64,000 bases of DNA from Ornithinimicrobium sediminis (lineage in GTDB: Bacteria; Actinomycetota; Actinomycetes; Actinomycetales; Dermatophilaceae), in assembly GCF_021272345.1 (NCBI RefSeq), contig NZ_JAJSDQ010000003.1, positions 62,001-126,000 on the forward strand, written 5' to 3'. The notes beneath the pieces are model-generated. The model made no database searches, was not told the DNA's origin, and saw nothing but the letters and a program-made list of their open reading frames with translations. Position numbers and translations under genes: made by a program. Position 1 is the first letter of the stretch; every line of letters begins with the position of its first letter. Shown in pieces: positions 32,002-35,085 of this stretch.

Positions 32002-32460
32002 TCAGGTCGCGAGGTGCGCGGGGGGCCCGGCCACGACCCAACGGCCCGCCTGCTGCTCGAAGGCGACCCGCACCGACTCCAGCGGCAGGAGCTCCCCGTG
32101 CCGCACGCCGCACACGGCCGCAGTCACGGTTGCCGTCCCCGGGCCTTCCTCGGTGCTGACCCTCAGGACGCCGACGACGGTGTCACCGCGCGGGTCCAGC
32201 CCGGCGAGCTCGACAGGGCCGACGAGCCGGGCCGGCGGGCCTCCCCCCGAGACGGCAGAGGCCTCGGCGAGCGCCGCGGCGTCGGCCTCGAGCCCTTCCT
32301 CGGCGAGGCGCACCAGGGAGCCCGCTGCGGTCTGCTCGACCGCCAGAGGCAGGTCCGCCAGCCGGACCGGTCCGCTCCCACCCGGCAGCGGGGCGCCGGC
32401 GAGGACGGACCGCAGGACGATGGCCTGCGGCCCGTCGCTCGCACCGATGACCTCAGTCAC
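32002..32460 (-). CDS. Hypothetical protein, last gene of the metalloprotease operon
   Basis: A 152-residue protein beginning VTEVIGASDGPQAIVLRSVLAGAPLPG and ending AFEQQAGRWVVAGPPAHLAT. It is rich in Ala, Gly, Leu and Val but soluble, with no signal peptide or membrane helix. Alternating hydrophobic stretches (DTVVGVLRVSTEE, TATVTAAVCGV) suggest beta structure. I do not recognise the family. The GTG at 32460 overlaps the stop of the acidic-protein gene by 8 bp, so it is translationally coupled to it and probably works with it. Confidence 0.7.
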   Translation of the reverse strand: MTEVIGASDGPQAIVLRSVLAGAPLPGGSGPVRLADLPLAVEQTAAGSLVRLAEEGLEADAAALAEASAVSGGGPPARLVGPVELAGLDPRGDTVVGVLRVSTEEGPGTATVTAAVCGVRHGELLPLESVRVAFEQQAGRWVVAGPPAHLAT

Positions 32461-32824
32461 CGTCGCCGCCCAGGGCGTCGACCTCGTCGAGGTCCAGGGG
32501 CGGCGGAGCCTCCCCGGGGACGGCCCCGACCGCCGACCCGGTGCCGGCGTCGGCGCCCTGCTCGGACGGTGCCGGCGCCGCGTCGCCGGCACCGAGCTCT
32601 TCGGAGCCCCCGAGGGCGGTGTCCGGCGCCGGGGCCTCACCACCGCCGCCGGAGAGCCCGGCGGCCTCACCCCCCTGCTGGGGGTCGGGCTCGGGCGGCT
32701 CGCTCGACTCGCCGAGCTGGCCGGCCCCGAAGGCGTCGTCAGGTGCCGGGGCCTGGTCGGAGGCGCCGCCCAGCGACGCACCGCCCTGGTCCCCGAGGTT
32801 GATGTTGATCGTCACGTCGGCCAC
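32453..32824 (-). CDS. Acidic Ala/Gly/Pro-rich low-complexity protein
   Basis: A 123-residue protein starting VADVTININLGDQGG. After one short beta-like segment it is disordered in appearance and strongly acidic, with almost no Lys or Arg. A motif of the type APAPD(D/T)A(F/L)G occurs twice (about 25 and 68), and DLDEVDALGGDGD closes the protein. No signal peptide. The GTG at 32824 follows GAGGAGG by about 6 nt; an in-frame ATG at 32857 would overlap the upstream gene's end region and has no such site. Codon use is normal for the window, and the coupled overlap with the next gene supports it being real. Confidence 0.7.
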   Translation of the reverse strand: MADVTININLGDQGGASLGGASDQAPAPDDAFGAGQLGESSEPPEPDPQQGGEAAGLSGGGGEAPAPDTALGGSEELGAGDAAPAPSEQGADAGTGSAVGAVPGEAPPPLDLDEVDALGGDGD

Positions 32825-32858
32825 GGCTGGCCCTCCTCGCTCGTCGTGTCCCAGCACA

Positions 32859-33083
32859 TCACAGGTAGACCGCGATGATCTTGCTGTCCGCGGCGTCGGT
32901 GGTCACCGACACGGACTTGCCGCTGTCGCGGGCCGCGGTGAGCACCAGGTGGGTGTTGGTGTGCCCGTCGGTGCTGGTGCCGTTGACCTGGCGCCAGCCC
33001 CCCGGGGTGTTGAGCCAGGCCCAGGCGTTCTTGCTGTGCGGCGTGCTGTAGATGCGGCCGATGGTGGTGTTGTAGGCAGCCAT
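32859..33083 (-). CDS. Free-standing copy of the metalloprotease C-terminal domain
   Basis: A 74-residue protein that is essentially one domain: RIYSTPHSKNAWAWL, GWRQVNGTSTDGHTNTHLVL and a C-terminal IIAVYL. It matches residues about 280-345 of the adjacent metalloprotease (RVYTTPHSKNAWAYP, GWRKVAPTSTDGVTNTFAAL, ITSVYF) at nearly half the positions by eye. I do not recognise the domain. It could be an immunity/inhibitor-like or adaptor copy, or a substrate. It starts 33 bp after the protease stop with a GAGGAG site about 11 nt upstream; same operon. Confidence 0.85.
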   Translation of the reverse strand: MAAYNTTIGRIYSTPHSKNAWAWLNTPGGWRQVNGTSTDGHTNTHLVLTAARDSGKSVSVTTDAADSKIIAVYL

Positions 33084-33116
33084 GGTGGGTGTTCTCCTCG
33101 TGCGTGGGGTGGTGGT

Positions 33117-34154
33117 TCAGAAGTAGACGGAGGTGATCTCGGTGCCGGTGACGAGCATCGTCGCCGGCTTGTCGGAGGCGCGGGCCTGGACCAGCGCCGC
33201 GAAGGTGTTGGTCACGCCGTCGGTGGAGGTGGGGGCGACCTTGCGCCAGCCGACCCCGGTCGGGTATGCCCAGGCGTTCTTCGAGTGCGGCGTGGTGTAG
33301 ACCCTGGCCAGGGTCTTGGTCATCCACTGCTGCGCGCCGTAGATGGACTGGATGCCGTCGATGTCGTCCTGGTGCAGGAACCGGTGAGGCCCCCCGTAGT
33401 AGGGGTACATCAGCGCCCCCGACACCGTGGAGTGCGCCAGGCCCAGGGCGTGGCCGAACTCGTGGGCTGCCACCGTGTAGAGGTCGATGCCCGTGGCCGG
33501 CAGGCTGACCGTCCACGTCTCGGCCTCGTCGAAGTGGGTGTCGCCCGCGATGTCGCCGCCGTTGGGCGGTGGGTAGTAGGCATGCGCCAGCACCCCACCC
33601 GGTCCGTCGAACGGGCTGCCGTCGCCGTGGTTGCCGGCGGCGAAGCGGATGCGGATCTCGGGGTTGCTGGCGTTCGGGATCTCGCCGAAGGTCAGCGGGG
33701 TCACCGCCGCCCAGTAGCCGAAGGCCGTCGAGACCGCCGCCCGCACCTGGGCCTGGCTCAGGTCCGGGGTGAACTCCACAAAGCCGTAGCGCAGCGTCGT
33801 GGTGCTCCACTTGTTGCCCTGGGCGACGAACTCCGCCGAGACCGGCTCTGCGGTGTCGGGGAACCCGCAGCGCGGCTTCGTCATCAGGTCGCGGGTCGCC
33901 TTGTTGAGCTTGCCCGTGACCGGCAGGTCGTAGTGCTCCTGGAAGGTGCGCAGCGCCTCCTCGGTCCGGTCGTCGAAGGTGCCGTGCTCGGGCTCCTCCT
34001 GTGCCATCGCGTGGTCCACGCCGAACTCGTCCAGGACCGGCGACTCGAGATAGCCGAACTGCGACAGGTAGTTCTGCAGCCGTTCGACATCCGCGCCCGT
34101 GTCCCCCTTCTTCAAGCCGGTCGACTTCGGGACCAGCTCGTCCTGTGTCGTCAT
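33117..34154 (-). CDS. Matrixin (MMP-like) zinc metalloprotease with cysteine-switch propeptide
   Basis: A 345-residue predicted zymogen. Residues 14-92 form a PG_binding_1 domain (LKKGDTGADVERLQNYL and TFDDRTEEALRTFQEHYDLPVTGKLNKATRDLM). PRCGFPD at 94-100 (C96) resembles the cysteine switch of animal MMPs. The catalytic domain follows with the structural-zinc/calcium loop GNHGDGSPFDGPGGVLAHAY, HFDEAETW, zinc motif HEFGHALGLAH at 231-241 and Met-turn ALMYPYY. Residues about 280-345 are a domain of unknown type duplicated in the next gene. There is no signal peptide, which is odd for a matrixin. AGGAGG precedes the ATG, and a 7-bp hairpin (34171-34186) sits just upstream of that site. Confidence 0.92.
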   Translation of the reverse strand: MTTQDELVPKSTGLKKGDTGADVERLQNYLSQFGYLESPVLDEFGVDHAMAQEEPEHGTFDDRTEEALRTFQEHYDLPVTGKLNKATRDLMTKPRCGFPDTAEPVSAEFVAQGNKWSTTTLRYGFVEFTPDLSQAQVRAAVSTAFGYWAAVTPLTFGEIPNASNPEIRIRFAAGNHGDGSPFDGPGGVLAHAYYPPPNGGDIAGDTHFDEAETWTVSLPATGIDLYTVAAHEFGHALGLAHSTVSGALMYPYYGGPHRFLHQDDIDGIQSIYGAQQWMTKTLARVYTTPHSKNAWAYPTGVGWRKVAPTSTDGVTNTFAALVQARASDKPATMLVTGTEITSVYF

Positions 34155-34206
34155 CGTGCCTCCTAGCGGCCCCGGCAGGTGCCGGGCCGGTGTGTGAGCC
34201 GCCCGT

Positions 34207-34220
34207 GGCGGACGTCCGCC
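34207..34220. promoter_or_regulatory. Perfect 14-bp palindrome upstream of the metalloprotease operon
   Basis: GGCGGACGTCCGCC is its own reverse complement. It lies 53 bp upstream of the protease ATG, between it and the 11-bp repeat array, close to a TAGCGT -10-like hexamer on the minus strand (34246-34251). It could be an operator. High GC makes short palindromes frequent, so confidence is limited. Confidence 0.4.
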
Positions 34221-34259
34221 GGGTGGGTGCCCGGCCGTGACGTGGACGCTAGGCGGGGT

Positions 34260-34314
34260 GCCGTGAGGCGGGCGTGACGCCGGCGTGAGCCCGGCGTGAG
34301 TCTGCCGTGGGCCG
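34260..34314. repeat. Five direct repeats with 11-bp period (candidate SARP/BTAD binding site)
   Basis: The core CGTGA (CGTGG in the last) begins at 34262, 34273, 34284, 34295 and 34306, exactly 11 bp apart; the extended unit is G(G/C)CGTGAG. SARP-family activators bind heptamer direct repeats at 11-bp spacing next to the -10 region. A BTAD regulator gene starts at 34366 on one side, and the metalloprotease operon starts at 34154 on the other. A minus-strand TAGCGT (34246-34251) lies 8 bp from the array and a plus-strand CATACT (34339-34344) lies 24 bp away. Confidence 0.7.
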
Positions 34315-34365
34315 TATCGCCAGGACCCGGTTCGGCTCCATACTGGGGACGAGGATCGGGGAGAG

Positions 34366-35085
34366 ATGGACACGGGACCTGAGCTGTCGATCAGCCTGCT
34401 GCCCACGTGCGTGCTGTCCCGCGCCGGGGGCGAGGTGGTGGTGCCCCTGCGGGTCCAGCGGCTGCTGGCTCTGCTGGCTCTCTCCCACGACCGGCCGCTG
34501 ACGCGGGCCCACGTCGCCGGGTCGCTGTGGCCGGACACCACGTCGAGCCGGGCCTTCAGCAGCCTGCGGTCCACCCTGCGGGGCCTGCGCAGCCTCGACC
34601 CGCTCGTGCGGGTGGACGTCGAGAGCGTGCGCCTCTCCCCCGAGGTGCACGTCGACTGGGTGGAGGCCGTCGACCATGCCCGCAGGATCCTCGACGATGA
34701 CACCCGGGTGCCCGCCCTGCGGGCGGTGCAGCTGCTGCGCCGCGGGCTGCTCACCGACTGGTGCGAGGAGTGGCTGGACGCCGAGCAGCACTCCTTCCTG
34801 CAGCTGCGCGTCCACGCCCTGGAGACCCTCTGCCTGCAGCTGAGCCAGGACGGTCGCCATGCCCTCGCCGTCGAGGCGGGTCTGGCCGCCGTCGCCTGTG
34901 AGCCACTCCGGGAGAGTGCCCACCGCGCACTGATCCGTGCCCACCTCGCCGAGGGCAACCACTTCGACGCCATGGCGCAGTTCCGTCGCTTCGAGCGCGA
35001 CCTGCGCACCGAGCTCGGCCTGTCCCCCGGCCCGGGCGTGACCAGGCTGCTGCCGGGGTGCAGCCCCGTCACCGCGCCGAGCTAA
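34366..35085 (+). CDS. BTAD-domain (SARP/AfsR-like) transcriptional regulator
   Basis: A 239-residue protein. Residues about 5-80 form an OmpR/PhoB-type winged helix (LLPTCVLSRAGGEVVVPLRVQRLLALLALSHDRPLTRAHVAGSLWPDTTSSRAFSSLRSTLRGL in outline). Residues about 85-232 are a bacterial transcriptional activation domain (DWVEAVDHARRIL, AVQLLRRGLLTDWCEEW, ALIRAHLAEGNHFDAMAQFRRFERDLRTELGLSPGP). No ATPase or TPR extension, so it has the short SARP architecture. It is divergent from the metalloprotease operon, its likely target. ATG follows GGGGAGAG, and CATACT at 34339-34344 is a -10 candidate. Confidence 0.92.
   Translation: MDTGPELSISLLPTCVLSRAGGEVVVPLRVQRLLALLALSHDRPLTRAHVAGSLWPDTTSSRAFSSLRSTLRGLRSLDPLVRVDVESVRLSPEVHVDWVEAVDHARRILDDDTRVPALRAVQLLRRGLLTDWCEEWLDAEQHSFLQLRVHALETLCLQLSQDGRHALAVEAGLAAVACEPLRESAHRALIRAHLAEGNHFDAMAQFRRFERDLRTELGLSPGPGVTRLLPGCSPVTAPS

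Follow-up and report, generated by a model that had tools for sequence, protein, structure and literature searches.

The matrixin operon of the window

The 64,000-nucleotide stretch of Ornithinimicrobium sediminis DNA analysed here (the window) carries on its minus strand, at 32002-34154, four genes that encode, in this order, a matrixin-type metalloprotease (P0001), a free copy of the protease's own C-terminal domain (P0002), an acidic disordered protein and a protein called D. The domain shared by P0001 and P0002 is referred to as DOM. The gene of a regulator of the Streptomyces antibiotic regulatory protein (SARP) type is divergent from this operon, with short repeats in between (Table 1).

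Table 1. Features of the protease locus, in positions of the window (MMP, matrix metalloprotease; aa, amino acids)
Feature	Position	Strand	Remarks
M10 matrixin P0001, leaderless	33117..34154	-	345 aa; MMP-type pro-peptide, catalytic domain, C-terminal DOM (residues 277-345)
cis DOM copy, C-terminus of protease P0001	33117..33323	-	
Free DOM copy P0002	32859..33083	-	74 aa; predicted OB-fold
Acidic disordered protein	32453..32824	-	Begins with MADVTINI, followed by a repeated Pro-x-Pro-acidic motif; third cassette gene across phyla
Protein D	32002..32460	-	Partner beside this M10 clade; candidate inhibitor/immunity protein
SARP-type regulator (BTAD)	34366..35085	+	Divergent from operon
Five heptamers at 11-bp spacing	34260..34310	+	Between the divergent genes; consensus GGCGTGA; candidate SARP operator

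The initial annotation had described P0001 as a matrixin with a PG_binding domain, the motifs PRCGFPD and HEFGHALGLAH and no signal peptide, a description with which Pfam, the motifs and a hydropathy scan agree. Pfam recognised Peptidase_M10 (PF00413, 7.5e-54, residues 115-273) and PG_binding_1 (PF01471, 4.6e-16, residues 19-91), HEFGHALGLAH is the M10 catalytic motif HExxHxxGxxH, and a hydrophobic N-terminal stretch is absent. The pro-peptide motif PRCGFPD contains the switch residue Cys96 which, judging from this motif, would keep P0001 latent by binding the zinc. A peptidoglycan-binding role was not adopted for the N-terminal domain: alignments of P0001 with the pro-peptides of MMP-1 and MMP-3 start at residues 65 and 67, and the PG_binding match overlaps this region, so that it is not evidence of peptidoglycan binding. 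The window's genome also contains a weak second M10-like match (25.9 bits, G000:C7:20574-20672). Large matrixin open reading frames (ORFs; 770-787 aa), in which the RCGxxD switch motif was not found, were seen in three metagenome-assembled Crocinitomix genomes (L050, L052, L054).

The separate gene for the C-terminal domain was also correctly noted: the last 69 residues of P0001 are 47% identical to P0002. The four genes had been described as coupled by overlaps, which holds for the acidic and D genes, overlapping by 8 bp in the window, in the congener G013 and in Microbacterium ulmi, and does not hold for the protease and the free copy, which are separated by 33 nt. Compared with its homologues, the acidic gene starts at about 32824 rather than at 32857. 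Its product was rightly called acidic and of low complexity, as it contains 20% Asp and Glu and no Lys, Arg, Trp, Cys or Tyr.

A cassette shared by four protease families

P0001 was searched for, at E 1e-3, in 97 genomes of relatives, the window's own included. Nine of them matched, over the full length only in the window's genome and in G013; the other seven matches were partial or weaker. All five genes are present in G013, arranged as in the window, and the four-gene operon has the same order in M. ulmi, where the SARP gene is convergent downstream. P0001 was also used to scan a contig collection that holds one genome per species (84,980 species by its description). Of the 44 loci returned, nine (L056-L064) matched essentially via the C-terminal domain. 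In L056, DOM ends a papain (PF00112, 4.1e-41), and a diverged papain version with DOM is found in Kriegella aquimaris (PF00112, 2.1e-45). Seven loci encode M6 proteases, identified by Pfam in L058 (1.7e-25), L061 (4.6e-23) and, below the cut-off of the family, L063 (3.4e-4), and called from similarity, without a Pfam scan, in L057, L059, L060 and L062. In L064, DOM ends an astacin (1e-51). Four unrelated protease families, M10, M6, papain C1A and astacin M12A, therefore bear this domain of about 70 residues, at the C-terminus in all four.

The free DOM gene is the next gene after the protease in each of L056-L064, and the gap between the protease stop and the start of the free copy was 10-72 nt in all 12 cases measured. 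Fifteen whole genomes, ten chosen for the domain and five for a related M10, were searched for DOM; it was present in 11, with two adjacent copies in each. Together with the genomes of the window, G745 and G013, this makes 14 domain-bearing genomes, all of them with two adjacent copies; 13 were searched with a DOM profile or a free copy, and G013 with the whole protease only. These members belong to the Actinomycetota, the Bacteroidota and the Pseudomonadota.

DOM was rare in genomes drawn as samples: 1 of 396 from the phylum of the window (the window's own genome), 4 of 249 from the Algibacter family (including one new case), and 1 of 250, 2 of 240 and 2 of 248 in further draws, the last two each made up of the query genome and one weak match later rejected. 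Over all draws there was one new true case (G745). The spread of DOM is probably underestimated, since the contig collection was scanned with the whole protease and the draws are samples, not full searches. Several weak matches were discarded. Two were dropped before counting, one in G999 (L099), whose frame looks by eye like that of an AsnC-type regulator, and one in G1470 (L101), in a stretch that resembles by eye part of an outer-membrane beta-barrel protein; the others were three matches within the window's genome, at E 0.1-0.4.

DOM was not found in viral contigs (query A1; 53 pattern matches, none confirmed), in plasmids (queries P0002 and the Algibacter cis domain) or in phages (query the Algibacter cis domain), and nine proteins gave no match to the PADLOC models of anti-phage defence at E 0.01. 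On these grounds a phage or plasmid origin was rejected. In PHROGs, P0001 matched PG_binding-type endolysins only, and the L056 papain had two matches, one to a peptidase family and one of unknown function.

Of the 13 cassettes that could be tested, 12 have an acidic gene after the free copy: those of the window, G013, M. ulmi, L056, L058-L064 and G745 (L057, where the contig ends too early, was left out). The encoded proteins start with a short strand of the M..T-I-x-I type, continue with Pro-x-Pro repeats and are disordered; Asp and Glu make up 15-21% of eight of the 12, and 9-11% of those of L021, L056, L062 and L063. Compared with shuffles of the same composition, the number of Pro-x-Pro motifs was reached in at most 1 of 1000 shuffles for nine of the 12 proteins, and in 18 and 23 of 1000 for two others. 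In the 13th cassette, that of Kriegella, the free DOM instead carries a comparable N-terminal extension of about 60 residues, and this fusion suggests that the third-gene protein and the free DOM act together. Three M6 cassette proteases (L057 5832-7397, L059 6675-8240 and L061 6684-8225) have a Cys-containing start and then P-P-S-P, similar to the motif repeated in the acidic protein.

The fourth gene varies with the class of the protease. Both papain cassettes encode a cysteine-protease inhibitor of the chagasin family (I42; 3.5e-17 and 3.7e-13), and all three M10 cassettes encode D, the proteins of G013 and M. ulmi being 41% and 31% identical to that of the window. Four M6 cassettes of the flavobacterial type (L058, L059, L060 and G745) have, by eye, a common fourth protein of 88-97 residues, and the fourth ORF of the astacin cassette, of 159 residues, has no Pfam match; in L062 and L057 the contigs end too early to reach this gene. 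A Pfam match of the fourth gene of L061 (UL128, 0.0014, below cut-off) was judged to be due to chance.

Homologues of D also lie downstream of related matrixins which have no DOM and end in a repeat module. When ORFs of the fetched loci were scanned with a D profile, D was found in nine of nine M10 loci at least 57% identical to P0001 (eight of them found by reading and included in the profile seed, L029 being outside it) and in none of 20 at 54% or less, some contigs among the latter ending early downstream. In 22 whole genomes, D was present at E 1.2e-16 or better in eight, each with an M10 of the P0001 clade, and absent from the ten with other DOM cassettes and from the four with more distant M10s; a chance-level match in G494 (E 0.005, 47 positions) was dropped. 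In Kriegella, D adjoins an M10 gene, and the DOM, papain and chagasin cassette is on another contig. Because D was found only with this M10 clade in the genomes and loci searched, it follows the matrixin as chagasin follows papain. In polymorphic toxins, a gene that tracks one peptidase class, Imm35, was likewise read as its inhibitor (PMC3482391). By analogy, D is a candidate inhibitor of the MMP-type matrixin. The predicted structure of the D family (representative L027, 10 sequences) has a pLDDT of 90.7.

In conclusion, as read from gene order and protein families, these loci form a conserved cassette, in which proteases of different families are joined to a cis and a free DOM, an acidic third gene and a fourth gene that varies with protease class. 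A lack of the gene set in relatives was among the findings that would have refuted the initial annotation. The outcome was the opposite: G013 and M. ulmi have the complete set, and its core is found in three phyla, which supports the existence of a real proteolytic system. The least probable explanation, that P0001 is an ordinary intracellular protease with a chance duplicate of its domain and unrelated neighbours, is barely credible: it would fit the rare and sporadic occurrence of the cassette, with a single new case in the draws, but not a gene order that is constant with four protease families in three phyla.

Predicted fold and possible functions of DOM

DOM belongs to no library family in the searches made: the free copies P0002, L058 and L064 had no match in Pfam, P0002 none in NCBIfam or PADLOC, and P0002 and L058 none in PHROGs. 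An AlphaFold (AF2) model of a free DOM, built from an alignment of 22 sequences, has a pLDDT of 85 and an arrangement of strands, helix and strands; its topology, b-b-b-a-b-b, is that of an oligonucleotide/oligosaccharide-binding fold (OB-fold), and DOM is thus predicted to be an OB-fold. In a Foldseek search of the PDB, the top matches were the B subunits of AB5 toxins (query-normalised TM-score, TMq, 0.72-0.73). The best was the B subunit of heat-labile enterotoxin type II (LT-II; E 3.5e-3, probability 1.00, TMq 0.73), followed by those of pertussis toxin, Citrobacter CfxB and cholera and heat-labile toxins (CT/LT); lower in the list came CipA (7xhs; E 4.8e-2, TMq 0.66), Stx2B and SubB. Pro-protein-glutaminase was matched as well (E 6.5e-2, TMq 0.69-0.70, rmsd 2.0-2.1). 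A profile search of the PDB sequences found no relative, so that the likeness to AB5 B subunits and CipA is a resemblance of fold, not a family assignment; designed TIM barrels matched in that search (E 1e-4 to 1e-3) were considered spurious, at about 5 bits per repeat. In the BFVD structure collection nothing was below E 1.8e-2, the E value of the best viral match, protein p7 of APSE-1, a phage of an aphid symbiont (Q9T1U1, TMq 0.70).

In a tree of 26 DOMs the free and the cis copies each clustered, with 4 label changes compared with 9.0 and 8.9 after shuffling. Signal peptides were judged by a hydropathy scan, not by a trained predictor. No signal-like start was detected in 14 cassette proteases or in 13 free copies, the highest 10-residue means being 1.47 and 1.46, compared with 2.74 and 2.58 for signal-like starts in the same scan; among other matrixins, L030 reached 1.8 and L027 2.1, the latter ahead of its likely true start.

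We propose the following mechanism. First, DOM would form oligomers, as an OB-fold of the AB5-B/CipA type; the free DOM would join the DOM of the protease in a cytoplasmic assembly, in which one or a few proteases are carried by several domains. Second, the acidic protein may act as a multivalent linker of the DOM assembly. Third, the protease would be silenced both by its pro-segment (Cys96 on zinc in the M10 enzymes) and by a class-matched inhibitor (D). Finally, it would be released through lysis or another route, after which DOM, perhaps a carbohydrate- or surface-binding module, would hold it on its target; a binding role is suggested by the DUF346-type repeat module that the nearest DOM-less matrixins have in this position. 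We give an even chance to the general reading, a dedicated and sporadically spread cassette for a latent, inhibitor-guarded and leaderless protease that is co-assembled via OB-fold domains. A more specific version is held tentatively, at a confidence short of even: a modular 'protease particle' system across phyla, in which a cytoplasmic OB-fold assembly and an acidic linker are combined with a protease and its matching inhibitor, exchanged as a unit. The assembly part would then be the constant one, an AB5-like architecture built without secretion and with interchangeable proteases. The initial annotation had offered three roles for the small domain protein, adaptor, decoy or inhibitor. Since a predicted OB-fold pair is kept with four unrelated protease families, co-assembly or an adaptor role is favoured for it; the role of inhibitor fits the fourth gene better.

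Several observations weigh against the co-assembly reading. No PDB match of DOM reached 1e-3 in Foldseek, the profile search of PDB sequences returned neither AB5 subunits nor CipA, and the match to pro-protein-glutaminase means that B subunits are not the only proteins that DOM resembles. A single clade of free copies was rejected (approximately unbiased test, p-AU 0.006), on a tree in which the papain and astacin copies sit on long branches; because the free copies are not one clade, either the cis and free pair had more than one origin or homogenisation event, or long branches pull the model. The pattern Pro-x-Pro was chosen after the sequences had been read, and its excess is weak in L019 and L064 and not significant in L091 (59 of 1000 shuffles). 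For the fourth gene, an inhibitor is recognised by family only in chagasin; the D model weakly resembles NTF2-like proteins (E 1.3e-3, TMq at most 0.39) and no known inhibitor, and the D of the window has a fairly hydrophobic stretch near its N-terminus (1.84), which we read as helix 1. The fourth gene of L061 looks different (122 residues, signal-peptide-like start), and L063 has no evident fourth gene.

Targeting in the manner of AB5 toxins is the least unlikely of the alternatives: free DOMs and the protease's DOM would form a B-type ring that binds glycans of a target cell and delivers the protease. SubAB is an AB5 toxin that carries a protease. The cassette has in common with such toxins its best structural matches (3.5e-3 at best, with SubB and Stx2B also listed) and a small gene that adjoins the enzyme gene, here a protease gene as for SubAB. 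It differs from them in that DOM has no Sec signal peptide by the hydropathy scan and is similar to B subunits in structure only, at E above 1e-3; moreover, the B-like domain is also joined covalently to the enzyme, and the cassette adds acidic and inhibitor-type genes.

CipA, the crystalline inclusion protein of Photorhabdus, is likewise an OB-fold protein and is among the Foldseek matches. It differs by having no sequence match to DOM, and we know of no protease partner or cis copy of CipA. OB-fold tetramers of CipA self-assemble into crystals inside their own cell, and the authors of that study had remarked on a likeness to LT-IIb (PMC9530169).

The free DOM could also be a decoy or an inhibitor, which competes with the protease's DOM for a receptor or caps it, and would then be the control element instead of D. 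This is improbable: one domain could hardly inhibit directly the active sites of four unrelated catalytic folds, and class-specific partners are encoded by separate genes, even though the same domain is present in cis and in trans next door, the free copies have diverged from the cis ones, and the DOM model matches pro-protein-glutaminase, a pro-enzyme (the part of the chain matched being left undefined by the search).

Still less probable is that the proteins are cargo of an extracellular contractile injection system (eCIS), a particle into which leaderless toxins and immunity proteins are loaded. The eCIS marker PF14065 was searched for in 16 genomes; it was present in five of the 14 DOM genomes, compared with 21 of 236 drawn Actinomycetota, a control from one phylum and unmatched, and a sixth match was in G499, a genome without DOM. 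In G013, eCIS-like genes, recognised by eye, extend to within about 15 kb of the SARP gene, and the PF14065 marker is 46 kb away; the remaining four genomes with the marker have it on a contig other than that of the cassette. The marker was absent from nine of the 14, the window's genome and eight further ones; as the window's genome is among them, an eCIS is not required. The G013 cluster (L110-L112; G013:C1, about 3,192,000-3,223,000) contains the Pvc16_N marker and, by eye, tail-tube, PAAR and baseplate parts.

Two other known systems were compared with the cassette. Polymorphic toxins have an exchangeable enzyme and an immunity gene matched to its class (PMC3482391), an arrangement that the cassette, with D as a candidate immunity gene, may share. 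In these toxins the C-terminal toxin is the variable part, whereas here the C-terminal DOM is constant and accompanied by a free copy; no N-terminal trafficking domain was recognised by Pfam in the cassette proteases scanned or by NCBIfam in the window's protease. Bacterial matrixins of the DUF346 type share the catalytic domain and the pro-domain, and the nearest ones also share the downstream D gene, but they have a C-terminal repeat module in place of DOM (identified as DUF346 by Pfam in L022, to which that scan was limited, and by eye in the others), and neither a free copy nor an acidic gene was seen downstream of the DOM-less loci. Two DOM-less matrixins have repeats before the pro-peptide (L025 1569-3149 and L026 32-2005), EMPEGKMTEAADPG-like in L025 and looser in L026.

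No description of the cassette was found in the literature searched, a scope that mostly excluded subscription papers and preprints. A paper on bacterial MMPs and gene transfer (PMC12587646) makes no mention of peptidoglycan, cysteine or DUF346. As a means of packaging and controlling a protease, the cassette seems to be undescribed. If so, DOM would extend the B-subunit-like fold, in a new domain family, beyond secreted pathogen toxins, which bears on the origin of AB5 toxins; the cassette would be a modular scaffold of natural origin in which a protease and its inhibitor, both exchangeable, are paired, and D a candidate bacterial family of inhibitors of MMP-type proteases.

Regulator genes and the 11-bp repeats

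The divergent gene encodes, as first annotated, a BTAD regulator (PF03704, 6.6e-18), whose DNA-binding half is weakly recognised (Trans_reg_C, E 0.14). It is 51% identical to the SARP of G013 and 43% to that of M. ulmi, both of which lie beside the cassette. The 11-bp repeats reported with it are the units GCCGTGA, GGCGTGA (three times) and GCCGTGG; a level equal to that of these five units was not reached in any of 300 first-order Markov resamplings. In G013 the units number three (0 of 300; for four units the figure was 4 of 300 and for five 77 of 300), and the weaker repeats before the M. ulmi protease gave 4 of 300 for three units and 0 of 300 for five, figures which, like that of the window, are uncorrected for the several unit numbers and two spacings tried. 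The repeats are absent upstream of the M. ulmi SARP gene (280 of 300).

Synteny and these repeats suggest that the SARP may control the cassette. The claim of a regulated proteolytic system had two parts, of which the system is supported by the conservation of the gene set and of its core across phyla, and its regulation is suggested by synteny and repeats only. A regulator gene is next door only in some cassettes. No Pfam match was obtained for the gene upstream of L059; a LuxR-type gene lies upstream of the M6 cassette L058 (Pfam GerE, 9.5e-18), the upstream gene of L063 was judged by eye to be of the same type, and a SARP gene accompanies all three M10 cassettes.

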